From Desulfuromonas sp. (lineage in GTDB: Bacteria; Desulfobacterota; Desulfuromonadia; Desulfuromonadales; Desulfuromonadaceae): a DNA stretch of 48,374 bases. Under the pieces are notes generated by a model that worked only from the letters and a program-made list of their open reading frames with translations, made no database searches and was not told the origin of the DNA. The position numbers and the translations under genes were made by a program. Of the stretch, positions 8,421-20,686 are shown in pieces. How positions within the stretch are numbered: the first letter of the stretch is position 1; every line of letters starts with the position of its first letter. The stretch covers positions 1-48,374 of the forward strand of contig JAGGYC010000156.1 of NCBI GenBank assembly GCA_021162745.1, in the 5' to 3' direction.

Positions 8421-9626
8421 ATGGAAAACATAGGAACATATATTATCTGGATTATCATGGCATGTGCTGTGGCTGGAGCCATAGCCTCGCTTAAAGATGA
8501 AGAAAATGGTCTTGGAGGGGAATTTATTACAGGCTTACATAGCATCGGACCCATCTTTATTCCCGTAGCTGGAATTATGGCGGCTATTCCTTACCTGTCA
8601 AAATTCATTAATGTCATCTTTGGTCCTTTGTATAATGCACTTGGTTCAGATGCCGCCATCGCTGCAACGACTTTTATCGCTGTTGACATGGGCGGCTATC
8701 AGCTCGCCGATGCGCTGGCCCAGACCCGCGAGGCCTGGATCATGGCCATGATAACAGGTTACATGGCGGGTGCCACCATCGTGTTCTCAATTCCTGTCGG
8801 TCTGGCAATGCTGGACAAACGTGATCACAAGTATATGGCCTTGGGGGTTATGGCAGGAATTCTGAGTATCCCCATCGGGGTATTTGTTACCTGCATAATT
8901 ACTGCCCTGACCAATGTTCAGGTGCGGGACATGGTGTCTGCTAATGCCGATGCGACCTATGTTCTAGCTCTTTCTTTGGGTGGCATTCTTGCCAACCTTA
9001 CCCCTCTGATTATCTTCTGTATTGTGATCGCTGTTGGCCTGTGGCTGGTTCCGGGTGTCATGGTCCGTGGTTTCCTGGCCTTCGGTAATACCATGACCGC
9101 AACGCTTAAATTGGTGTTGGTATTCAGCATTGTTGAGTATTTCACCGGATGTTTCAGCACCATACTGGGCGGGTGGGGCTTTGATCCCATTATCGCCGAT
9201 ACCGTAGACCAGTTCCGGGCGCTGGAAATTGCCGGCTATATCGGCATTATGCTGTGTGGTGCCTTCCCCATGGTTTACCTGATTCAAAAACACCTGGCAC
9301 GGCCCATGGAAGCCATTGGTGGCAAGCTGGGACTGGAAAGTAATGGTGCTGCCGGTATTCTGGCCGCTGCTGCGAATATCTTGGCCATGTTCCGTCTTAT
9401 CGGTGATATGCGCGCCAAAGACAAGGTGCTCTGTATTGCATTTTCAGTCTGTGCTGCATTCATGTTCGGTGATCACCTTGCTTTCACGGCAAACTTTCAA
9501 CCGACCCTGATCGCACCGGTTATGCTGGGCAAGTTTGTCGGTGGTATGACAGGATTTTTCCTGGCTTATCTGCTGTCCGTTCCCAAGGCCGAAGCTCTTG
9601 AGCTGGAAGAGGCTGATGTCGAATAG
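8421..9626 (+). CDS. eutH: Ethanolamine transporter EutH
   Basis: EutH is an inner-membrane protein that carries ethanolamine into the cell. The 401-residue sequence has about ten membrane segments and family-typical stretches such as DEENGLGGEFITGLHSIG at residues 25-42, the loop AVDMGGYQLA near 95, and GDHLAFTA near 350. AGGAGAAAGGAAAGAACG precedes the ATG. It is the first gene of the operon behind the sigma-54-type promoter, and the next gene starts inside its last codons. A second, unrelated ethanolamine permease lies further downstream, so the locus has two uptake routes. Confidence 0.93.
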   Translation: MENIGTYIIWIIMACAVAGAIASLKDEENGLGGEFITGLHSIGPIFIPVAGIMAAIPYLSKFINVIFGPLYNALGSDAAIAATTFIAVDMGGYQLADALAQTREAWIMAMITGYMAGATIVFSIPVGLAMLDKRDHKYMALGVMAGILSIPIGVFVTCIITALTNVQVRDMVSANADATYVLALSLGGILANLTPLIIFCIVIAVGLWLVPGVMVRGFLAFGNTMTATLKLVLVFSIVEYFTGCFSTILGGWGFDPIIADTVDQFRALEIAGYIGIMLCGAFPMVYLIQKHLARPMEAIGGKLGLESNGAAGILAAAANILAMFRLIGDMRAKDKVLCIAFSVCAAFMFGDHLAFTANFQPTLIAPVMLGKFVGGMTGFFLAYLLSVPKAEALELEEADVE

Positions 9627-11142
9627 CGAAAACGGTAGCCTGCCGGTTGGGTCCGGGGCGGAACAGAGTATGACGTGCGGTTTTACAACCGCGCAAAATA
9701 CTGATGTCCGTCAGGTGAAACTTATCGGGCTTGATTTTGGCTCGACCACCAGCAGTGCCATTGTTGCCAAGGCCCATGTGGGACGTAATTGTATTACGGG
9801 TCGCATGGAGCTTGGGCAGCCGGAAATTTTATATCGTTCCACACCGGTTTTTACTCCGTTTTCTGACGGCGTGATCGATGAACGGCGGGTGGAGGAGTAT
9901 CTAGAGCAATGGCTTGCGGAAAGTGACACCAACCTGGAGGATATCTTTGCTGGAGGCACCATCATTACCGGCCTGGCGGCGTTGCGCAGTAATGCGCAAC
10001 CCTTGGCCAGGCTGGTAAGTGAACGGATTGGCGAGGCGGTTATCGCTACAGCTGATGATCCATCGCTGGAATCGTGGTTGGCATTTATGGGCAGTTGTTC
10101 AGTGTTGTCACGCTTTCACAGCGACACGCCGATCATCAATCTCGACATCGGTGGTGGAACCACCAATCCCGCTCTGGGGTTGAACGGTAATGTGCAAAGT
10201 ACCGGTTGTTATTATATCGGGGCGCGACATTTTCGTTTTGAACCGGACAGTTATCTGTTGCTTGGGCTATCTGACTTTGGTCGTCAGCTTCTGAATCACC
10301 TGGGTGTTTCGTTGGCTATTGGTGAAGTTATGAGCCGACGGCTGCGTGATCAGATCCTCGATTTTTATATCGAGGCACTGGAAGCCATGGTCAAAGGGGC
10401 AACGTCGTTTTTTGTGGAAGGGATTGCCCAGGTTCATCAACAGGTGCCGTTTGAATGTGCCTGCAACGCAGTGATGCCGGTTGTGACCTTTTCCGGTGGG
10501 GTTGGTGAGTTGATCTATCAACAGGTTGCGGGGGAGGGTTTGCCGACAACAACCTATTTTGGTGACCTGGGCATTGATCTCGCCCGACGTATTATCGCCT
10601 CACCGCTACTGGCGGCAAATCTTGAGCAGTTTGTTCCAGAAAATCGGGGGAGGGCAACCGTGTATGGTTTAGCCCTGCACAGCACCGATGTCTCTGGTAC
10701 CACCCTGTATCTACCCGATACACAAGCGCTGCCGTTGCGGGATCTGCCTATTGTTGCACGCCTGGCGATGGATGCCGGCCCTGATGAGTGGCTACATGCT
10801 CTGGAATTGTTGCGCAAGGGAAGCAGTGGCGGTTGTATTCAGATTCTTTCACCGCGGTCACTGGATCCCTATGGACAACCATCGACCCTAACACAGATTA
10901 AAGCAGCCGGGCAGTGTCTGGCGGCGCTGTTGCAGGCTCATCCTCTGTCTGATGAGCACACCATGGTGTTGGTTGTCAGTGACAATGCAGGCAAAACCCT
11001 CGGTAATTATGCGTCAAATTGGGGGCAATTGCCGGTGAAATTGGTGGTGATCGATGAAATCCCTGATCGACATGCACATTTTGTGAATATCGGTCGTTGT
11101 TTGAACAATATTGTTCCTGTTTCTTTTTACGGGATGAACTAA
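9616..11142 (+). CDS. eutA: Ethanolamine ammonia-lyase reactivating factor EutA
   Basis: EutA is an actin-like ATPase that exchanges damaged cobalamin bound to ethanolamine ammonia-lyase for fresh adenosylcobalamin. The ATG at 9616 sits behind GGAAGAGG and overlaps the end of eutH by 11 nt; an in-frame TTG at 9598 is possible but less likely. The 508-residue protein shows the nucleotide-binding motifs GLDFGSTTSSA (about residue 38), NLDIGGGTTNPALG (about 176) and VTFSGGVGELIY (about 290). It is about 40 residues longer than enteric EutA, mostly at the N-terminus. It precedes eutBC by 42 bp. Confidence 0.92.
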   Translation: MSNSENGSLPVGSGAEQSMTCGFTTAQNTDVRQVKLIGLDFGSTTSSAIVAKAHVGRNCITGRMELGQPEILYRSTPVFTPFSDGVIDERRVEEYLEQWLAESDTNLEDIFAGGTIITGLAALRSNAQPLARLVSERIGEAVIATADDPSLESWLAFMGSCSVLSRFHSDTPIINLDIGGGTTNPALGLNGNVQSTGCYYIGARHFRFEPDSYLLLGLSDFGRQLLNHLGVSLAIGEVMSRRLRDQILDFYIEALEAMVKGATSFFVEGIAQVHQQVPFECACNAVMPVVTFSGGVGELIYQQVAGEGLPTTTYFGDLGIDLARRIIASPLLAANLEQFVPENRGRATVYGLALHSTDVSGTTLYLPDTQALPLRDLPIVARLAMDAGPDEWLHALELLRKGSSGGCIQILSPRSLDPYGQPSTLTQIKAAGQCLAALLQAHPLSDEHTMVLVVSDNAGKTLGNYASNWGQLPVKLVVIDEIPDRHAHFVNIGRCLNNIVPVSFYGMN

Positions 11143-11184: not shown

Positions 11185-13380
11185 ATGAGTTCGATTAAAA
11201 AAATCAAGGCACTGGACGAAATTGTTATTCCTGAACCGAAGGCGGATGAAACGTACAGCAAAACGTTGTTGAAGCGTGAATTTTCGTTCGCAGGGCTCAA
11301 AAAATTGTTGGGTGTGGCTGATTTTTCCAAGTCTGGTGACCGGGTTTGTGGGTTGGCTGCTGAGGATGAGATCAGTCGCGAAGCAGCACGCTCAATACTC
11401 TCCGACCTGACACTGCAACATCTGTACGATCGGCCCCTGGTTGATGATCGTGGTGCCCTCGATTCCGTTATGCGGGTTGGCTACGATATCGATCTGGCGG
11501 TGTTCGGCTCCATTGCTGATATGACGATGGGTGAGCTGAAGGATTACCTGATGCGCTCACCCGGCAGCGAGATGGAGCGTATCGGTCCAGCATTGCTCCC
11601 CGTAATGGTGGCTGGCCTCGCCAAGATCTGTGATGTGCATGAACTGATCTATCTTTCCGCTAAGGTTAAGCCTAACGCCAAGGCGCGTACCCGCATTGGA
11701 CTGCCCGGCACACTGTCGTCGCGTTGTCAGCCGAATCATCCCACCGATGATCTCCGTGGTTTGACCCTGCTGACCTATATGGGCCTCGCCGAAGGGGCTG
11801 GCGATTGTCTGCTGGGGATGAATCCGGCGGAAGATACGGTGGAAAATGTCAGCGTTGTTCTGGAGACAATGGACAAGATTCGTCGCGAAACCGGTGTTCC
11901 GACTCAGCTCTGCTGCCTGGCTCATATTAAAACTCAACTGGCTGCCATGGAAAAAGGGGCACCGGTGGAAATTCTGTTCCAGAGTATCGCCGGAACCGAT
12001 CGCACCCTGGTCGACGAGTTTGATGTCACCGTTGATTTTCTGGATAAAGCTTATTATACCATGGCCGAAAAAGGTCCATTGCGTGATCAGGCTGAGCAAT
12101 GGATGTATTTTGAAACAGGTCAGGGGAGTGAAGTCAGCTACAACAAACATAACGGTATCGATATGACGGTTACCGAAGCGTTGTGTTATGGCCTGGCGCG
12201 TCGTTATGATCCGTTCATGGTTAACAATGTTACTGGCTTTATCGGTCCTGAAACCCATCTGGATAACTTTGAGATGTTGATCTCCAATCTTCAGGATCAG
12301 TTCATGGGTAAATTGATGGGTCTGCCTATGGGGATGGCACCATGTTACACCCTCCATTCAAACTGCACATCTGAAGGGCAGCAGATGGCAACCCAGTTGT
12401 TGACCGCTGCCGGCGCCAATTTCTTCATGGATGTTTATTATGGCATGGATCGTATGCTGTCCTATTTTGACACCAGTGGACATGACGACCAGACCCTGCG
12501 CGAAATCTACAACCTGAAGCCGGCTCCAGAATATCAGGCCTGGGCTGTTGAAAAAGGAATTTATCAGCTCGACGAGCAGGGCCATGTTGAGCGTGGCGCC
12601 AATTGGGGTAATCCGCGGATCTTCTGTGATTCAGATGTTGAGTTTCAGAAATTGCTTGAGTCTACTCCGGCCGTCTATGGTCTTGAAAATGCCGGGCCGC
12701 GTGTTGCCAACGATGTGCAACGTACATTACGTGCCAATCAGGCGATTGCTCGCGAGGCTATTCATGCTGATCTGCGTCTGGAAGAGCTTGAGAAATTCAA
12801 TGTTCGGCTACTCAATACCAAAGCAACCAGCAAGGATGCTCATCTCAACGATCCTGAACTGGGAGCACATATTGCCGAACAGGATCGTGCGGCATTGAAG
12901 GTTGAAAATTGTGATGTGCAGGTTCTGATCTCCGACGGCCTCAGTGCCGAGGCCATTCACCACAACATGGACGAACTGCTGCCGGTGCTGGAGGATGGTC
13001 TCAAGAGTCGAGGTTATACCGTTGCTCAGCACCTTGTGGCTCCTTATGGACGGGTTAAGCTGGCCGAAGAGGTTTCAGATGCCGTTCAGGCCAAGGTGAT
13101 CATTAACTTGATCGGTGAGCGCCCCGGCGGTGATGCCCTGGCTTCACGCAGTATGTCTTCCTACATGACCTATCGCCTCGAAGATGATGATAAACAGGCT
13201 GCTGCCGAGTTCAGCGGCAATAGCGATATTGCCTTTGAAATGACTGTCATCTCGAATATTTACGCCGGGGGGATCCCCTCTCTTGAAGCCGGCAGCCTGA
13301 TTGTCGAAAGGGCTATCCAGATCCTGGAAAACCGCGCAGCCGGCAACCGCCTTACCAACCTGCTGAAGGACAAGGCTTAA
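11185..13380 (+). CDS. eutBC: Fused ethanolamine ammonia-lyase, large and small subunits (EutB-EutC)
   Basis: This 731-residue protein would split ethanolamine into acetaldehyde and ammonia using adenosylcobalamin. Residues about 30-477 are EutB: IGLPGTLSSRCQPN (Arg160/Gln162 of the enteric enzyme), GMNPAEDT (Asn193), LVDEF (Glu257/Phe258) and YFETGQGS (Glu287). Residues about 490-731 are EutC without its usual N-terminal extension: VQVLISDGLSAEAI, YGRVKLAEE and LIGERPGGD. Normally these are two genes; here the frame runs through without a stop. By my recollection of the E. coli sequence, Asp362 (MGCDCCYT) is Ala here (MGMAPCYT) in a gap-free alignment, an unusual change at a substrate-amine-contacting position. 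GAAGGAGAATTAAT gives a strong ribosome site. EutA lies just upstream. Confidence 0.93.
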   Translation: MSSIKKIKALDEIVIPEPKADETYSKTLLKREFSFAGLKKLLGVADFSKSGDRVCGLAAEDEISREAARSILSDLTLQHLYDRPLVDDRGALDSVMRVGYDIDLAVFGSIADMTMGELKDYLMRSPGSEMERIGPALLPVMVAGLAKICDVHELIYLSAKVKPNAKARTRIGLPGTLSSRCQPNHPTDDLRGLTLLTYMGLAEGAGDCLLGMNPAEDTVENVSVVLETMDKIRRETGVPTQLCCLAHIKTQLAAMEKGAPVEILFQSIAGTDRTLVDEFDVTVDFLDKAYYTMAEKGPLRDQAEQWMYFETGQGSEVSYNKHNGIDMTVTEALCYGLARRYDPFMVNNVTGFIGPETHLDNFEMLISNLQDQFMGKLMGLPMGMAPCYTLHSNCTSEGQQMATQLLTAAGANFFMDVYYGMDRMLSYFDTSGHDDQTLREIYNLKPAPEYQAWAVEKGIYQLDEQGHVERGANWGNPRIFCDSDVEFQKLLESTPAVYGLENAGPRVANDVQRTLRANQAIAREAIHADLRLEELEKFNVRLLNTKATSKDAHLNDPELGAHIAEQDRAALKVENCDVQVLISDGLSAEAIHHNMDELLPVLEDGLKSRGYTVAQHLVAPYGRVKLAEEVSDAVQAKVIINLIGERPGGDALASRSMSSYMTYRLEDDDKQAAAEFSGNSDIAFEMTVISNIYAGGIPSLEAGSLIVERAIQILENRAAGNRLTNLLKDKA

Positions 13381-13554: not shown

Positions 13555-13818
13555 ATGGAAAAGAAAATAAACTCACTCTACACCAATGACAATCTCATTG
13601 TGCTTGTATCGATGTCCATTCTCTGGTGCGTCATTCTTTTTGTCCTCAAACAGGTGCTTTCGATCTCTCCGAACGCGGGATTCAGCAGCGCCGCCATCGG
13701 TGCCGGAGCCGCTGTCCTTGCCGCCCTTACGGCAACCTCCTTCGCCTTGGTGATGCACCTCAAGAAAAACAAGGTCCTTCTGTACACAGAAGAGATCGAA
13801 AATATGGGCAAATCTTAA
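13555..13818 (+). CDS. Small two-helix membrane protein (87 aa), unknown family
   Basis: The ATG at 13555 follows GAAGAGGAC, and an upstream in-frame start lacks such a site. The protein has two membrane segments (about residues 14-33 and 42-64), short charged ends, and a Lys-rich turn after the second helix (HLKKNKVLLYTEEI). I do not recognise the family. It opens a run of three tiny membrane-protein genes that leads directly into the ethanolamine permease, so an accessory role in transport is the simplest idea. Function is not known. Confidence 0.65.
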   Translation: MEKKINSLYTNDNLIVLVSMSILWCVILFVLKQVLSISPNAGFSSAAIGAGAAVLAALTATSFALVMHLKKNKVLLYTEEIENMGKS

Positions 13819-13843
13819 GAAATCATGACCTACGGGAAAAACT

Positions 13844-14080
13844 ATGAAAACCTTCAAAACCGTCTTCGATATCCTGTTTATCATGCTCCTGTGCTTCGCG
13901 ACTCTTTTAGGCACCATGCTGCTCCAAGGGGGGCTTCTGGTGGGTGGGGAGGGGATAGACTACACCTTCGGACTAGGTTCGTTTTCTGTCACCTTCGGTG
14001 CCCTGGCTGTCTACTTTGTGTTCGTCCTGAAGACCAGTAAAAAGGAGCTGAAAACAATGATCGACAGAATCTACAAATAA
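13844..14080 (+). CDS. Small two-helix membrane protein (78 aa), unknown family
   Basis: It begins 25 bp after the preceding small gene. The start MKTFKTVFDILF is followed by two membrane segments (about residues 8-33 and 43-62), a short GGEGIDYTFGLGS loop, and a basic tail KTSKKELKTMIDRIYK. Size and topology resemble the 87-residue neighbour, but the sequences are not obviously related. It is probably translated from the same mRNA as the permease. The only ribosome site visible is a weak one (TACGGGAAAAACT). Confidence 0.6.
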   Translation: MKTFKTVFDILFIMLLCFATLLGTMLLQGGLLVGGEGIDYTFGLGSFSVTFGALAVYFVFVLKTSKKELKTMIDRIYK

Positions 14081-14099
14081 CACCCTAAAGGATCACATT

Positions 14100-14225
14100 A
14101 TGAGTTTCTGGAAAATTATGAATTTTTCAGCCTGGGCCCTGAGTTCAATCATCTTCTTGTGGCTGGCTATTGATTTTCTCAAAGCTGAAAAAGAGTTATC
14201 TGACAAGAAAAACGGGACTGATTAA
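14100..14225 (+). CDS. Single-helix membrane microprotein (41 aa)
   Basis: ATG at 14100 follows AAAGGATCACATT, a good ribosome site. The product begins MSFWKIMNFSAWALSS, has one membrane segment (about residues 8-27) and a charged tail (KAEKELSDKKNGTD). It ends 12 bp before the permease start, and a ribosome site (AAGGACG) for the permease overlaps its end. The pattern of a one-helix protein directly upstream of a transporter recalls small transporter subunits such as those that accompany some sodium symporters; any function here is inference. Confidence 0.6.
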   Translation: MSFWKIMNFSAWALSSIIFLWLAIDFLKAEKELSDKKNGTD

Positions 14226-14237
14226 GGACGTATCGCC

Positions 14238-15605
14238 ATGGATAATACACATAAAAATGAACACACGCTGTCAAAAGTCCTGGGGGTTATCCATATATGG
14301 GCCCTTGGGGTCGGTATCGTCCTGGTGGGCGAATTTATGGGGTGGAACTTTGCCGTAGCCAAGGGGGGAACCCTGGGCGCTATCATCGCCTGTTGGGTCA
14401 TGGGGGTTCTTTTCATCTCCCTGGTGATGGTCAATACCGAGATCGGTTCAGTCATCCCCGAGGCTGGTGGGCAGTATGCCATGGCCAAGTATCTTCTTGG
14501 CCCCCTGGCAGCCTTCAATATCGGGCTGATGCTGGTGTTCGAATATGTCATGCTGGAAGCGGCAGACGCCCTGGTGGTCGGCCAGATCCTGGAATCTTTG
14601 CATCCCGATGTTCAGGCGCTGCCCTATATCATCCTGAGTCTGCTGTTCCTGACCCTGCTCAATTACCGAGGAGCCCTGGCGGCCTTGTCGCTGAATTTCG
14701 TGATCACCGCCATTGCGGTATGCACTATCTTTATTCTCCTGATCGTGACCAAATTCTACACCCCCGCTGAAAGCCTGCTTAACCTTCAGCAGATGTCCAA
14801 CGGACTGCCTTACGGATGGATCGGAGTACTTGGCGCGTTTCAGTTCGGCATCTGGTTCTATCTGGGCATCGAGGGGACGGCTCTGGCCGCCGAGGAGTGC
14901 CGTTCCACGGGGCGCTCTCTGCCTATCGGAGCGATTGTCGGCCTGATCACCCTGCTGATCGGTGCCACCATCACTTGGTATGTTTGTTCGGGACTCGTCA
15001 ACGCCGATGATCTCGGAAAGTCCGTCTATCCCCTTTACGACGCTGCTGTGGCCACGGAAATGCCCTTCGTCATCGCAGCCCTGTTTATCGGTACCATCCT
15101 CGCCTGTTTAGCTAGCGCCAATGGCTGTATTCATGATGCCGGTCGCGCCTGGTTTTCCATGTCTCGTGACACGCTGATTCCGGAACAGTTCGGTGTCCTC
15201 CATCCCAGATACAACACTCCGCACCGGGCGATTCTGTTTCTACTGCCTATCTCCTTGGCCTTCGGCTTTACCGGCCTTCTGGACCAGGTAGTGACCTTTT
15301 CAATCTTTTCCGCCTTGCTGGTTTACGCCTTCACGGCCATCATGATGTTCAAGTTCAGAAAGATGTATCCCGAAGGGATGATCGAGCGTGGCTATGTTTG
15401 CCCTGCCCATCCACTCCCGGCAATTGTTCTGCTGATCTTGACTTCAGCCACTCTGGTGGGTATGTACTTCGGTTACTGGATCAATATCTTGGGTGGACTG
15501 ACCTTCTATTTTCTTGCATCGCTGTGGTTTGTAAAATACCGGTGTAAATCAGTCGATCTGGAAAATTTCATCAAACCAAGATGGCCTCGGCCAAGGGGAT
15601 TTTAG
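14238..15605 (+). CDS. Ethanolamine permease, EAT branch of the APC superfamily
   Basis: The 455-residue protein has about twelve membrane segments. It carries features of the EAT (ethanolamine permease) branch: GVGIVLVGEFMGWNF near residue 24, PEAGGQYAMAKYLLGP near 75, and FGIWFYLGIEGTALAAEE near 205-225. It would import ethanolamine by proton- or sodium-coupled transport across the inner membrane, next to the unrelated EutH system. It follows three tiny membrane-protein genes within 160 bp and is followed 2 bp later by another, so these are probably one transcription unit. A different amine substrate cannot be excluded. Confidence 0.82.
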   Translation: MDNTHKNEHTLSKVLGVIHIWALGVGIVLVGEFMGWNFAVAKGGTLGAIIACWVMGVLFISLVMVNTEIGSVIPEAGGQYAMAKYLLGPLAAFNIGLMLVFEYVMLEAADALVVGQILESLHPDVQALPYIILSLLFLTLLNYRGALAALSLNFVITAIAVCTIFILLIVTKFYTPAESLLNLQQMSNGLPYGWIGVLGAFQFGIWFYLGIEGTALAAEECRSTGRSLPIGAIVGLITLLIGATITWYVCSGLVNADDLGKSVYPLYDAAVATEMPFVIAALFIGTILACLASANGCIHDAGRAWFSMSRDTLIPEQFGVLHPRYNTPHRAILFLLPISLAFGFTGLLDQVVTFSIFSALLVYAFTAIMMFKFRKMYPEGMIERGYVCPAHPLPAIVLLILTSATLVGMYFGYWINILGGLTFYFLASLWFVKYRCKSVDLENFIKPRWPRPRGF

Positions 15606-15607
15606 AT

Positions 15608-15877
15608 ATGCCTGCCTCTAAATGGTGGAAAGAATTCGTTCCTATTGTCTTGGCATTGTTAATACCGTCTTCCGGGCATCTGATTTTAGGTCGCCCAACG
15701 CGTGGATTCATATTAGTACTGTGGATGCTGGTTATGGGGTTCGTTACATATAATCTCACGGATGAAACCATATCCTTTATTGGTCGATATTCTGGTGGCT
15801 TTGCAATTTTAGTTATTTCGGTATTGGATGTTGAAACAATTATTCGCAAGAGGAAGTACCAGAAAAACACCGCCTGA
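15608..15877 (+). CDS. Small membrane protein (89 aa), unknown function
   Basis: An ATG at 15608, 2 bp after the permease stop, is preceded by AAGGGGA at a good distance; an earlier in-frame ATG at 15581 would overlap the permease. Three hydrophobic stretches lie at about residues 10-20, 28-46 and 55-73. The PSSGHLILGRPTRG segment between the first two resembles the turn of TM2-type small membrane domains, and the protein ends in a basic tail (RKRKYQKNTA). Tight spacing suggests it is made together with the permease. I cannot name a function. Confidence 0.65.
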   Translation: MPASKWWKEFVPIVLALLIPSSGHLILGRPTRGFILVLWMLVMGFVTYNLTDETISFIGRYSGGFAILVISVLDVETIIRKRKYQKNTA

Positions 15878-16002: not shown

Positions 16003-16536
16003 ATGACGATATCGACAGGAACTGGTGATGGTGGACAAACCTGCTTAACGGGTGGAAAACGTGTCAGTAAAAATTCATTACGTGTTTGTGCCTATGGAAC
16101 CATTGACGAGCTCAACAGCCTGATCGGCGTCATTCTGGCAGAGACGAAACCTGACAACATTTCGGATTCGCTGCGACAGATCCAAAATGATCTATTTAAC
16201 TTAGGGACAGATATTTCAACGCCAGGCACTAGCCAACCGATGGTCATGACATCCCACATTGAACGCCTTGAAAAATGGATAGAACAGGTCTCGAAAAAAC
16301 TTCCGGTGTTGCGCGAATTCATCTTACCGGGCGGGAGCCGAAGTGCAGCATGGTTGCATCTGGCACGGACCGTTGTGCGACGGGCTGAACGTGAGGTCGT
16401 GGCAATCTGTGCTGAAGAAGGCGACACGATCAACAAACTCTGTCTCACCTATCTCAATCGCCTTTCTGATCTTTTCTTCTTATGGGCGCGACTTGCTAAT
16501 GATTCAGGACAAAATGACGTTACCAGGTCAGCATGA
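16003..16536 (+). CDS. Cob(I)alamin adenosyltransferase, PduO type
   Basis: The enzyme transfers adenosyl from ATP to reduced cobalamin to make adenosylcobalamin, the cofactor of EutBC. The ATG at 16003 follows AAGGAGAATCACA and gives 177 residues, the family's normal length; an upstream in-frame start adds an unlikely hydrophobic leader. Family motifs are TGTGDGGQTCL (N-terminal ATP loop), YGTIDELNS, FILPGGS and ARTVVRRAERE, with the C-terminal YLNRLSDLFF. Its place beside the lyase genes fits cofactor supply to the ethanolamine pathway. Confidence 0.93.
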   Translation: MTISTGTGDGGQTCLTGGKRVSKNSLRVCAYGTIDELNSLIGVILAETKPDNISDSLRQIQNDLFNLGTDISTPGTSQPMVMTSHIERLEKWIEQVSKKLPVLREFILPGGSRSAAWLHLARTVVRRAEREVVAICAEEGDTINKLCLTYLNRLSDLFFLWARLANDSGQNDVTRSA

Positions 16537-16648: not shown

Positions 16649-18316
16649 TCAGTTACAATCGGAAGGGGTTCCCGCATTCATCTGCTCGAGAAATTTAACG
16701 CGTTGCAGTTCAAGATTCAATGACAACGCATGGTCGTTCAGCTCGTTGTTGACGTTCAAACACTCCCCGGCCTGGGCGGCATTATGATGAGCGACCCACC
16801 CAATCTGATCCAACACTTCACGTACCTGTTGGAGCCTTTGAGCCAGTTGCTCAATGGATTCGCCATTCTGCAGTCCTTCCAGCTGAAGCTGGTTGGCTAT
16901 TTCACTGACCGTGCGCGAAATCTGTTCAACCTGGTCGGCCTGTTTGCTGGCCCGCAAGGCCATGGTGCGACTGATCTCTGTAATCTCATCGCTACTGAGA
17001 ATAATCTGCCTGCCGTTGCAGTCGATCTGCGAGAGTACGTTATTGAAGTTTACGGTTATAGTCTGCAATGCCTGGGCGAAGAGATCCAGTTCTGAGGTCA
17101 ATGCCAGGCGCTGCTGAAGTTCGTCGGCAGCGATGTTTTCAGCCTGACTGGCCTTGTCGGACAAGCTTTCCGCCATCCGGTTCATCGCGTCAGCCAATTT
17201 GCCCATTTCGTCAGTACGATCAAGTTTGAGACGGGGGCTCAAGTCGCCACGGCCAATACTTTCAGCCATCGCAGTCCCCATCCTGATTGATCTGGAAATT
17301 TTTGTAGCAATCACCCACAGTAGCAGCAGGGCAATAGCGATGCTGATCAAACCACTGCCCAGTTCTTTCCACATCAGTGCGTTGACTGAAGCCAGTACCG
17401 TGCGGGCTGGGACCTGAATGTAAATTCCCCACGGCCGATCGTTTTGACCTACGAGCAATGGAACGCTAATCTCCATTCCCTGTTCATTCCAGTCGTAATA
17501 GGTCTCACCGCGGCTGATATTTTCAAGTAACTGTGGACTGTAGCCTGGTTGGCCTGCCAGCGGTTTTCCGGCCATGGCACCCGTTCCAGATGCTGCAACC
17601 TGCACCCCTGCATTACTGACAATAGACATCCGTCCATCACCAGCGAAGACATTCGCTTCATCGACCAGCTGTTGCAAAAAACCGAGCGTTAAGTCGATCG
17701 TTACCACACCATAAACTTGGCTTTTGTCCTGAATGGGCACTGAGACCGTTGTCATGAAAACATCTTTGTCACGAATGGGGTACATATAGGGTTCAGATAG
17801 TGTTTCGTGTCTTTTGCGTACCGGATCGCGATACCAAGACTCGTCAGCAAAGGTTGTCAGATTCTCCATTGAAACATTACCGGAGCCATCCTGAACCCAA
17901 TAATAGTTTACCCGTCCAGTACTATCGTGTCCCAGCGTATTCGCATGCTCGGCGTCACGACCATCAAAGGCATCAGGTTCCCAACATGTAGACCCGCCGA
18001 CAAAGTCGGGATTCTCCAGAACCATTCGCCGCAGCATTAAGTTGATATGGCGGCGGCTAAGAGTCATCTGTTGATCTAGATCCTTGGTAGCGGTAACTGA
18101 CTGCGCAAAACCGCGGGCGGTAAACATGGCTCTTTCAAGAACCGTTTGAATTTTCAACATGTTTTCAACGGCAGAAACAGTCGCTATTTGTTGAGCATCA
18201 AACATGGCTTCTTTACGAGCAGAGATAACAGACAAGGTAAGGTTTATTCCAGAGGTGAGCAATAAACACATCCCTGTCCATAGTGCTATCTTGGTTCTAA
18301 TTGATTGACTGCCCAT
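16649..18316 (-). CDS. MCP-derived dCache membrane sensor lacking the chemotaxis signalling tip
   Basis: The 555-residue protein has a membrane segment (about 10-30), a large periplasmic dCache-type sensor domain (about 40-310), a second membrane segment (about 325-345) and a HAMP domain. The cytoplasmic coiled coil starts like a chemoreceptor (EITEISRTMALRASKQADQ) and ends like one (AHHNAAQAGE ... ELNDHALSL). The conserved tip that binds CheA/CheW is absent. In the sensor domain the residues ESWY and SEPY sit where amino-acid sensors have RxWY and a Tyr; the carboxylate-binding Arg is Glu, while the distal Asp (TIDL) is kept. This suits a ligand with an amine but no carboxylate, such as ethanolamine; that is inference. 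Its start codon lies 162 bp from the sigma-54 activator gene, same strand. Confidence 0.8.
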   Translation of the reverse strand: MGSQSIRTKIALWTGMCLLLTSGINLTLSVISARKEAMFDAQQIATVSAVENMLKIQTVLERAMFTARGFAQSVTATKDLDQQMTLSRRHINLMLRRMVLENPDFVGGSTCWEPDAFDGRDAEHANTLGHDSTGRVNYYWVQDGSGNVSMENLTTFADESWYRDPVRKRHETLSEPYMYPIRDKDVFMTTVSVPIQDKSQVYGVVTIDLTLGFLQQLVDEANVFAGDGRMSIVSNAGVQVAASGTGAMAGKPLAGQPGYSPQLLENISRGETYYDWNEQGMEISVPLLVGQNDRPWGIYIQVPARTVLASVNALMWKELGSGLISIAIALLLLWVIATKISRSIRMGTAMAESIGRGDLSPRLKLDRTDEMGKLADAMNRMAESLSDKASQAENIAADELQQRLALTSELDLFAQALQTITVNFNNVLSQIDCNGRQIILSSDEITEISRTMALRASKQADQVEQISRTVSEIANQLQLEGLQNGESIEQLAQRLQQVREVLDQIGWVAHHNAAQAGECLNVNNELNDHALSLNLELQRVKFLEQMNAGTPSDCN

Positions 18317-18457
18317 TATTTTTTCTCCATTCGGTACTTGATTTACTAAGCTGGTCGCACTTTTTAACCTTCAAAATGTCCAAGCCGTTTTTTCGTCTGT
18401 ATTTTATCATCAATGGTCTTGTTTCCATCTTTGACCGTCTTTTTGCTGTCATTTGAG

Positions 18458-18473
18458 CGCAAACAACGCACCT
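18458..18473 (-). promoter_or_regulatory. Candidate sigma-54 promoter for the dCache sensor gene
   Basis: On the minus strand AGGTGCGTTGTTTGCG has GG and GC doublets exactly 10 bp apart and an intact TTTGC block. It lies about 145 bp before the sensor start, across the activator's stop region. It is weaker than the eutH promoter in the -24 half. Confidence 0.35.
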
Positions 18474-18478
18474 CTTGC

Positions 18479-20470
18479 TTATTTAAGCTCAATGTGGTGT
18501 TCCTTGATTTTTCGGTAAATGGTATTACGGCTAATGCCGAGCAGCATCGTTGCCTTAGAAACATTCCCGTCCGCTTCACTCAGAGCCAACTCAATCATCT
18601 CTCGCTCCAACTCTTTGAGCGGACGGACTTTGCTCTGCCGCTTAACCTCTCCGTCAGTCTCCAGTTCTGTGTGTAGTTCCATCAACTCGGCTGTCAATAC
18701 CCCTTCGGGACCGGACATATTAATGGCTCGCTCCAAGATGTTTTCCAACTCACGGATATTCCCCGGCCAAGGGTATACATAGCAAGCACGCAAAAAGGAT
18801 TCATCAACGGTAATATTGTCACGTCCCAATTTCTCAGACAGCCGCTGAGTTAACGCTTTGATCAGTAGCGGCAGATCCTGAAGACGATCTCGTAGCGAAG
18901 GGATGGAAATGCACAGGACGTTGAGGCGGAAATAGAGATCGGTACGGAAACGCCCAGCCTTGATCTCTTTGGGTAGATTTTTATGTGTAGCGGCAATCAC
19001 CCGGATATCGACAGGAATTTCAGAATTGGAGCCTACCCGCTTTACTTTACGTTCCTGAAGCACTCGCAACAGCTTGACCTGAACATGAATCGGCATATCG
19101 CCGACCTCATCCAGAAACAGGGTGCCACCATCAGCCTCCTCCAGGTTGCCGGGTTTGCCCCCCTTCTTGGCACCGGTAAAGGCGCCCTCTTCATAGCCGA
19201 ACAACTCGCTTTCAATCAGGTTTTCGGGCGTAGCGGCGCAGTTGATGGCCACAAAGGGCTGTTCTCTGCGATTTCCACAACGATGGATGCTCTGGGCAAA
19301 CATCTCTTTGCCGGTACCACTTTCCCCCAGGAGCAACACGGTCGAGGGGCTTTGCGCGGCAATCTCGACACGGCGCTTGGCCTCATTGATTACGTCACTC
19401 TCACCGATAATCGTATCCAGGGTATAGTAGGTACTGGCGACCGCTACATGGTGATGTGGTTTCTGCTTAGGTTTAGGTTTTGGTTTAGGTTTGAGATCCA
19501 CTGATGGGGCTCGAATGATGGCAATGGCACCGGTGTTCGTGCCCTGATCGTCATACAGCAAGCAGCCGGAGCTGAAGATACTGAATCCCTGCGCCTCCAG
19601 AAACACCTCTTTTTCCTTATAGCCAATACCGGTTTTCAGCAATTCAAGAATCGGTGCCTGAGGCCCGACCAGATTGCTGACATGCCAGCCCACCACATTA
19701 TTGGCATCGACATCAAAGATTTGAGCCGCAGCGTCGTTGATTTTGGTGATTTTTCCCTGAGTGTCGACCGTGACCAACGCTTCCCACATCGCGTTAATGA
19801 TGGTGGTCGAATCTTGATAGGCTGTCCGCAGTTTGTTACGGGTGTGGATAAGACGCAGTTTATTTTCGATGGCCTTGGCACCGGCCGCCACCATCGCCAG
19901 GGTATGCAGGCTGTCAAGATGACAGTCACCACTGACATTGAGAATTCCGATCAGTGACCCGTCGGGTTTGAAGATCGGCGCAGCACTGCACGCCAGGTCA
20001 TGATTACTTTCACAATAATGTTCAAAGCCGTGGATCTGGATCGGCTTTTGCTCCACAAGACAGGTGCCGATGGCGTTGGTGCCTCGCGTCGCCTCACTCC
20101 AATCATCGCCGAGACGCATGGGCCCCAACGACATATCTTCTGGAGATCCCTGTCCCCCCACTTGCGAGACAATCGTCCCGTGACTGTCAGCCAGTACCAC
20201 CTGAAAACCGGTATCCCCGACAAGGCTGTGCAGGTTTTCCATCACTGGCTGAGCGACTTTAATCAGCTGTTGGAGATGCTCAAAGTTCTTGTTCTGGCCA
20301 GTCAACTGGATAGTGCGGGGTTGGTGAGCGTTGTGCGGATCCACCTGTAATCGGTGACAGCGTCGCCAGGAGTTGGCCACCTGTTGACGCAAGCGCTGGC
20401 TATCCAGCCCTTGGCCTGCGACAAAACGCTCCCAGACCTTGCGCATTTCCTGAATCTGTTTGTCGGTCAT
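18479..20470 (-). CDS. Sigma-54-dependent transcriptional activator, AcoR/DhaR type
   Basis: The ATG at 20470 is preceded by GGGAG at 5 nt, giving 663 residues; a longer upstream start has no ribosome site. An N-terminal GAF-like ligand domain (about 50-220) and a PAS domain (about 235-340) precede the AAA+ motor, which has Walker A GESGTGKE near residue 395, the sigma-54 contact loop ESELFGYEEGAFTGA and Walker B GGTLFLDEVGD. A Fis-type helix-turn-helix closes the protein (NVSKATMLLGISRNTIYRKIK). A Lys-Pro repeat linker (KPKPKPKPKQKPHHH) joins PAS and motor. It most likely drives the sigma-54-type promoter before eutH, perhaps in response to ethanolamine or a derived signal. Confidence 0.9.
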   Translation of the reverse strand: MTDKQIQEMRKVWERFVAGQGLDSQRLRQQVANSWRRCHRLQVDPHNAHQPRTIQLTGQNKNFEHLQQLIKVAQPVMENLHSLVGDTGFQVVLADSHGTIVSQVGGQGSPEDMSLGPMRLGDDWSEATRGTNAIGTCLVEQKPIQIHGFEHYCESNHDLACSAAPIFKPDGSLIGILNVSGDCHLDSLHTLAMVAAGAKAIENKLRLIHTRNKLRTAYQDSTTIINAMWEALVTVDTQGKITKINDAAAQIFDVDANNVVGWHVSNLVGPQAPILELLKTGIGYKEKEVFLEAQGFSIFSSGCLLYDDQGTNTGAIAIIRAPSVDLKPKPKPKPKQKPHHHVAVASTYYTLDTIIGESDVINEAKRRVEIAAQSPSTVLLLGESGTGKEMFAQSIHRCGNRREQPFVAINCAATPENLIESELFGYEEGAFTGAKKGGKPGNLEEADGGTLFLDEVGDMPIHVQVKLLRVLQERKVKRVGSNSEIPVDIRVIAATHKNLPKEIKAGRFRTDLYFRLNVLCISIPSLRDRLQDLPLLIKALTQRLSEKLGRDNITVDESFLRACYVYPWPGNIRELENILERAINMSGPEGVLTAELMELHTELETDGEVKRQSKVRPLKELEREMIELALSEADGNVSKATMLLGISRNTIYRKIKEHHIELK

Positions 20471-20686
20471 ATGATCTCCCAGTGTGTTACCACCCAATAA
20501 CGCACACATGTGTCGGGAATGACCAAACACTCGGCGGAATGCGGTTGGGGTCGTTCATATTTTTAAACAGAAGCAACAGGGCCGCTGACATAACTAGCTC
20601 ATGTAAGGGACATGAACTGCAATTTGACGGCTATCTGGCAATTATACTCCCAGCCGAAGCGTATGTATAAGGATACCGCTCTTTGG

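Follow-up and report, generated by a model that had tools for sequence, protein, structure and literature searches.

APC permeases of bacteria are generally regarded as transporters of one chain, and they serve as simple models for the SLC7 family. SSS symporters have small two-helix partners of the DUF485 or DUF4212 families, encoded directly before the permease. In SLC7–SLC3 transporters such as LAT1–4F2hc, an APC-fold light chain is joined by a membrane-crossing partner, and this SLC3 chain has a large outer domain (excerpts of PMC8617281). In its crystals GkApcT carries MgtS, a lone helix lying on TM5 that the authors liken to the heavy chain of heteromeric transporters (passages of PMC5803215). 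AcrZ, CydX and CcmD are described as small membrane proteins with a role in larger membrane complexes (passages of PMC10903887). Here we describe a row of five genes at positions 13555–15877 of a 48,374-nt stretch of Desulfuromonas sp. DNA (contig JAGGYC010000156.1; hereafter the window), in which three genes for small membrane proteins, S1, S2 and S3, precede an EAT-like APC permease and a fourth, S4, follows it. We propose, with a probability of roughly 0.65, that these genes encode a heteromeric transporter for short-chain amines, in which the APC permease works with S1–S3 as dedicated small subunits and S4 is a looser partner.

The sequence-only reading of this locus had made its case depend on whether the small genes are conserved beside the permease in other genomes. 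We ran this comparison and found the order S1-S2-S3-permease in 79 of 82 loci, 60 of which also carry S4. The loci come from a permease-alignment scan of a collection of species genomes, made with two peptide patterns, from which the best 80 of at least 554 relatives were kept (50–95% identity; loci L082–L161). Profiles of S1–S4 and of the permease, grown from the window proteins, were run on all open reading frames (ORFs) of these 80 loci, of the window and of L037, L054, L077 and L078, and copies on the permease strand within 4.5 kb were counted in the window, L082–L161 and L037 (n = 82). L054 and L077 are on the same contigs as L082 and L154, and the S1–S4 profiles detected no module copies in L078. 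The E-values of these profiles are optimistic, because the profiles were iterated on the same locus set; a whole-genome check for S1, described below, was independent of gene position. Among the three loci that depart from the full order, L108 contains S2, S3, permease and S4 on a contig that starts where S1 is expected, and L123 and L127 have no called S3, yet a similar-looking short ORF, judged by eye, stands in its place. S4 was found near the permease in 61 of the 82 loci, some of whose contigs are cut. By NCBI title (n = 81), the loci fall into seven named phyla, with 36 in Pseudomonadota, 29 in Bacillota, 4 each in Thermodesulfobacteriota, Synergistota and Actinomycetota, 1 each in Planctomycetota and Myxococcota, and 2 given no phylum; as many loci are metagenome bins, the phyla represented by a single locus are the least certain. 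The corresponding genes of Paracoccus aminophilus (pAMI6) and Aminobacter sp. MSH1, three before and two after the permease, are annotated as hypothetical proteins; among them the S2 counterpart was identified by tblastn, and the rest were judged by order and length.

The ORFs, predicted helices and order of the four small genes around the permease (87, 78, 41 and 89 residues) were borne out in the window, as were the short gaps and mostly good ribosome sites that the sequence-only reading had noted. Intergenic gaps are 25 bp (S1-S2), 19 bp (S2-S3), 12 bp (S3-permease) and 2 bp (permease-S4), and Shine-Dalgarno-like stretches of 4, 3, 5, 5 and 4 nt precede S1, S2, S3, the permease and S4, that of S2 being weak. 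A scan for promoters and terminators returned no more sites than in shuffled sequence. Compared with the sister genomes G028 and G029, identities are 91% and 81% for S1, 96% and 96% for S2, 88% and 88% for S3, and 73% and 74% for S4. Across the three pairs formed by the window, G028 and G029, the nonsynonymous-to-synonymous ratio (pN/pS) is 0.16–0.30 for S1, 0.04–0.06 for S2, 0.08–0.31 for S3 (resting on ~20 synonymous sites), 0.16–0.22 for S4 (with pS saturated in the comparisons involving the window) and 0.03–0.07 for the permease, and these low values indicate that S1–S4 and the permease are genes under purifying selection. The idea that the small ORFs are not genes, or stand where they do by chance, could draw on their short lengths and on the fact that no library family is reached at threshold, but we regard it as hardly credible given the low pN/pS, the protein-level conservation over loci titled to seven phyla and the annotated counterparts on the Paracoccus and Aminobacter plasmids.

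Whole genomes behind 30 of the module loci were searched with TIGR00908 for permeases and with the S1 profile, and coordinates were compared by eye. All 31 S1 matches lie directly upstream, on the same strand, of a permease scoring 174–220 bits on TIGR00908, whereas none of the 16 other EAT-type permeases in these genomes (206–710 bits, one of them read as two pieces) has an S1 of its own; TIGR00908 matches above the cut-off are present in 12 of the 30 genomes. Because these genomes had been chosen for having the module, we also ran S1 on 395 genomes of the window's phylum. There the profile matched four genomes, two of which, the window's and G136, carry the permease; the other two are weighed below. 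The permease itself was found at E ≤1e-40 in three of the 395, namely the window and G136, both with S1–S3, and G296, which is without S1–S3 and whose permease has 30% identity and lies beside eut genes. A further S1 match in G013 (E 0.006, within a 556-residue frame) was taken as chance, as were weak matches of S2 in another 15 genomes (E 0.004–0.08); two of the S2 regions were inspected (G009 and G123), and that of G009 holds what looks by eye like a SecG-like ORF.

We then placed 40 S-linked permeases (<86% mutual identity), 13 other EAT-type permeases from the 30 genomes and 6 neighbours in one tree (n = 59), leaving out the frameshifted L175, four of the ten neighbour permeases and the EAT-type permeases G533:C29 and G528:C1:2514118. 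All 40 S-linked permeases fall on one side of a single branch (support 100/99; 200 bootstrap trees at 100%), a pattern that a single gain of the small genes would explain. Within this group, L103 (Acetobacteraceae) pairs with L085 (Desulfosporosinus) at 96/94, and L099 pairs with L083 at only 90/56; such groupings across phyla are as expected for a module that moves as a unit. Within the genomes searched, S1 is thus exclusive to this permease subfamily, and we regard the small genes as dedicated to it.

The permease scores above the Pfam cut-offs for PF00324 (105.3 bits) and PF13520 (97.1 bits), and its structural model (pLDDT 85.7, pTM 0.87) has a LeuT-type fold, placing it in the APC superfamily by domain as well as by fold. 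GkApcT (TM-score 0.83) and LAT1 (about 0.81) are among its nearest solved folds, and GkApcT (5oqt and 6f34) is also its closest solved relative by sequence. Like EAT (TIGR00908), it is an APC permease that adjoins ethanolamine genes, and it can be aligned to that model over 424 of its 455 residues, but its score of 215.8 bits is below the curated cut-off of 381.75, and in the tree the S-linked permeases are apart from the 13 others. The label 'EAT' is approximate because the S-linked permeases form a clade apart from the true ethanolamine permeases; the permease is EAT-like and, by that model, no member of TIGR00908, and the tree indicates that the S-linked permeases are a subfamily of their own. 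The initial description as an EAT-type permease is corrected in this respect.

That the small proteins belong to no known family held for S1–S3. Pfam yielded no consistent family for 37 S1 or 36 S2 members and NCBIfam none for 40 S3 members (at most 3 members per family), and window S1–S3 searched against both libraries gave nothing except a match of S2 to LPG_synthase_TM (E 0.0069). This match is below the cut-off, recurs in 5 of 36 members and was taken as chance, as were scattered matches of S1 and S2 to large membrane families (5 members per family at most). Comparison with solved chains gave nothing for S1 at E ≤1 and a best E of 0.11 for S2. Of the members from the 40 chosen loci, three fused ones are left out of the S1 family (A2), and four whose S2 is broken up or carries a long insertion are left out of the S2 family (A3). 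Asp12 of S1 is invariant (37/37), as are Trp12 and Asp25 of S3 (40/40) and Pro20, Gly23 and Arg32 of S4 (27/27), and Tyr77 of S1 and Asp9, Tyr40, Tyr57 and Ser65 of S2 are nearly so. By hydropathy only, the mean numbers of Lys and Arg residues point to an inside location for the S3 C-terminus and for both termini of S1 and of S2. Across loci, with start codons chosen by script, median spacings are 26 bp for S1-S2, 3 bp for S2-S3 and 10 bp for S3-permease, and the genes abut or overlap at 15/75, 28/79 and 24/79 of these junctions, respectively. In three Actinomycetota loci (L117, L118 at 9315-9787, and L121) the S2 match is spread over two ORFs, with the break falling between the helices, and the second ORF in L118 starts with a signal-like hydrophobic stretch, as judged by eye. 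S3 of L118, L128, L141, L145 and L151 carries a C-terminal tail with two serines and Glu-Gly that window S3 lacks.

The module shares with the DUF485 and DUF4212 partners of SSS symporters a gene for a two-helix small protein directly upstream of a permease, but the window permease is APC rather than SSS and its small proteins have no detectable homology to these families. With 25 of 30 fetched loci used per family, hhalign gave S1–S3 at most 2.5% against DUF485 or DUF4212, compared with 98.4–99.5% for split-family controls and 31% for DUF485 against DUF4212. Paralogy of S1 and S2 was not supported either (22% for whole families, 2.5% and 0.1% within two halves). S1 and S2 occur in a single reading frame in 4 of 81 loci (L093, L103, L107, L109). 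The four helices of this natural fusion, like the separate gene products in most loci, would suit S1 and S2, with or without S3, being a transporter or channel in their own right, carrying for instance ammonia, methylamine or a volatile product alongside the permease. We consider this quite improbable, given that in the 30 genomes every S1 stands beside this permease and that neither family nor fold searches linked the proteins to small transporters.

S4 is less tightly tied to the permease. Window S4 scores 20.4 bits on DUF6677, below the Pfam cut-off of 24.3, and in the S4 family weak matches to DUF6677 (15/27 at E ≤0.1, best 3.4e-5) and DUF5683 (10/27) recur. In Pseudomonadota, S4 typically lies ~700 bp from the permease, behind another gene. 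Between permease and S4, in the Pseudomonadota and Actinomycetota loci inspected, we observed a gene that we call S5 (about 170–240 residues, at most one helix; e.g. L128:11399-12076), with relatives in 38 of 81 loci and no Pfam match. On pAMI6 of P. aminophilus JCM 7686 the genes run S1-S2-S3-permease-S5-S4.

GkApcT with MgtS is a solved precedent, as GkApcT is a near relative of the permease by sequence and fold and a single small helix sits on its TM5. It differs from the module in that MgtS is a protein of the E. coli expression host and not an operon partner, and in being one small protein against three; the crystal shows that a small helix can sit on a permease of this kind. SLC7–SLC3 resembles the module in pairing an APC-fold chain with a partner that crosses the membrane, but the window partners, two hairpins and a lone helix, lack SLC3's large outer domain, and S1–S4, at 41–89 residues and mostly helix, are not partners of the SLC3 type. 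AcrZ, CydX and CcmD are likewise tiny membrane proteins with a larger membrane partner, whereas the module has three dedicated ones beside one APC permease, a case of which we found no example in the open-access literature.

Some of these precedents would also suit small proteins that are bound regulators or stabilisers, with the permease transporting alone and its activity, turnover or lipid environment being tuned. MgtS lies against GkApcT, where it creates a site for cholesterol, and a stabilising role of MgtS for MgtA has been reported (both in passages of PMC5803215); AcrZ is said to modulate AcrB (passages of PMC10903887). S3 is similar in size to such proteins. We think this arrangement rather unlikely, because three separate proteins accompany the permease in 79 of 82 loci, a greater constancy than one would expect if they were optional regulators, and because the fusion of S1 to S2 in four loci and a gene set that hardly varies speak for subunits. 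Where the sequence-only reading had left the choice between a multi-part transporter and a permease with regulatory microproteins, the conservation of dedicated small genes is upheld and subunits are favoured, with S4 as the looser member. In the heteromeric transporter that we favour, the permease, as a LeuT-fold APC core, would form the substrate path, as its family and fold suggest. S1 and S2 would be helical hairpins side by side, packed on the permease exterior, and S3 would pack as a single helix, possibly sitting on the permease as MgtS does on GkApcT. Together, S1–S3 would stabilise or gate the permease and would be needed for its assembly, stability or transport cycle, with S4 an optional or looser partner. 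We infer this packing and gating, and the mutual binding of permease and small proteins, from the exclusivity, the gene order, the fusions and the MgtS precedent.

In the window, the module follows genes for ethanolamine breakdown and precedes a cobalamin adenosyltransferase gene (Table 1). Chemoreceptor-like and sigma-54-activator-like genes, recognised by eye, lie at 16649-20530 on the minus strand and adjoin the module in G028 and G029 too. In G029 (C10; L054:3412-5636), EutBC is in several pieces, either broken or misassembled in the draft genome. The window's genome has two more EutB-EutC fusions (L035:8053-10311 on G000:C63; L036:11593-13878 on G000:C130), which are only ~28% identical to that of the window and have other neighbours.

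Table 1. Genes of the module and its neighbours in the window; helix counts (2/2/1/10/3 for S1/S2/S3/permease/S4) are predictions of a hydropathy scan.
Feature	Position	Strand	Basis
S1, two-helix small membrane protein, 87 aa	13555..13818	+	ORF, hydropathy; family A2; no Pfam/NCBIfam match
S2, two-helix small membrane protein, 78 aa	13844..14080	+	ORF, hydropathy; family A3
S3, single-helix small membrane protein, 41 aa	14100..14225	+	ORF, hydropathy; family A4
APC-superfamily permease, EAT-like subfamily, 455 aa, 10 helices	14238..15605	+	PF00324, PF13520, tree, model
S4, small membrane protein, 89 aa, 3 helices, weak DUF6677 resemblance	15608..15877	+	ORF, hydropathy, Pfam
Fused ethanolamine ammonia-lyase EutB-EutC	11185..13380	+	PF06751, PF05985
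EutA-like reactivase	9598..11142	+	PF06277; ORF as listed, true start probably later
EutH-like second transporter	8421..9626	+	named by eye
PduO-type cobalamin adenosyltransferase	16003..16536	+	TIGR00636, PF01923, scanned as longer ORF from 15952

To look for a common cargo, we surveyed the same loci, up to ~10 kb, for marker genes, using one query per marker and blastp over half the query length; the marker labels are our own, Pfam domains were obtained for most queries, and many contigs are cut. At least one surveyed marker is present in 47 of 81 loci. MgsA-type amidotransferase is found in 25/81 loci (23/36 among Pseudomonadota), the gamma-glutamylmethylamide-synthetase type in 18/81 and the MgsC type in 17/81, followed by a corrinoid protein (7/81), a pyrrolysyl-tRNA-synthetase-like protein (6/81), trimethylamine methyltransferase and EutB (5/81 each), a histidine kinase of the L087 type (3/81), and glycine/sarcosine/betaine reductase and a bacterial microcompartment (BMC) shell protein (2/81 each). 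On pAMI6, the module begins beside the mgsABC-gmaS operon (passages of PMC4543880) and is divergent from it. Methyloversatilis universalis FAM5 raises 'amino-acid permeases', which ones being unnamed, on methylamine (passages of PMC5023235); the Methyloversatilis module locus in our set is from another strain, EHg5. In 'Ca. Formimonas warabiya', 2.3 kb separate a copy of the module from a gene for reductase component B, and a model for this organism, perhaps concerning the same cluster, has sarcosine cleaved to monomethylamine (passages of PMC9768040). These neighbours point to a short-chain primary or methylated amine as the cargo theme, with methylamine the probable cargo where the module adjoins N-methylglutamate pathway genes.

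At the window locus, the cargo would be ethanolamine or a closely similar compound on which the neighbouring B12-dependent lyase acts. We examined the EutB positions that we take to correspond to Arg160, Gln162, Asn193, Glu287 and Asp362 of E. coli EutB. At the first four positions the residue is conserved, and the Asp362 equivalent is Ala in the window, in G028 and G029 and in L086 (12539-13903), and Ser in G058. It is Asp in 14/14 other aligned EutBs of the order, in the two other fusions of the window's genome, and in G296, L099 and L103; as L099 and L103 are module loci that keep Asp, Ala is no rule of the module. The substrate of the window EutB may be different from ethanolamine, and ethanolamine itself remains the simplest cargo at this locus.

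Several observations weigh against a heteromeric amine transporter. The melting temperature of GkApcT hardly changes with MgtS, being 58 degrees without it and 57 degrees with it, but cholesterol hemisuccinate no longer stabilised GkApcT once MgtS was absent (passages of PMC5803215). The model of the S1-S2 fusion has four helices and is moderate in quality (pLDDT 76.3, pTM 0.59), and a fold search with it gave no solved fold at E ≤0.001. Two weak S1 matches among the 395 genomes stand without the permease, in G366 (E 2.5e-7), whose contig has no permease among its gene calls, and in G420 (E 7e-4), where the match sits inside a 676-residue frame; both are taken as chance. A EutH-like transporter is already encoded at the window locus in addition to the EAT-like permease, aconitase X, present in 4/81 loci, does not fit a simple amine theme, and 34/81 loci have no amine marker within reach.

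Open-access full text, a base without most subscription journals, yielded no description of these small proteins, in agreement with the earlier remark that such a set is not described for EAT transporters, and they are not mentioned in passages of PMC5023235, PMC9699525, PMC4543880, PMC5520151, PMC9768040, PMC12155760, PMC10903887, PMC8617281 and PMC5803215. Should TmoP, the TMAO permease of Methylocella, belong to this subfamily, the permease itself would already be known in part. A bolder version of the heteromeric transporter, which we offer only tentatively and think somewhat doubtful, is a prokaryotic heteromeric APC transporter whose three obligatory small subunits were acquired once, spread between phyla as a unit and became specialised for methylamine and related short-chain amines; the window lyase, with its changed amine pocket, may then accept N-methylated ethanolamine and release methylamine. 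If the heteromeric transporter is real, a conserved bacterial APC permease with three dedicated small proteins would lend itself to asking why some LeuT-fold transporters need partners, and three families now annotated as hypothetical proteins would gain a likely role. The module would also be a candidate uptake step of the N-methylglutamate pathway for methylamine, near whose genes it lies in 23 of the 36 Pseudomonadota loci.

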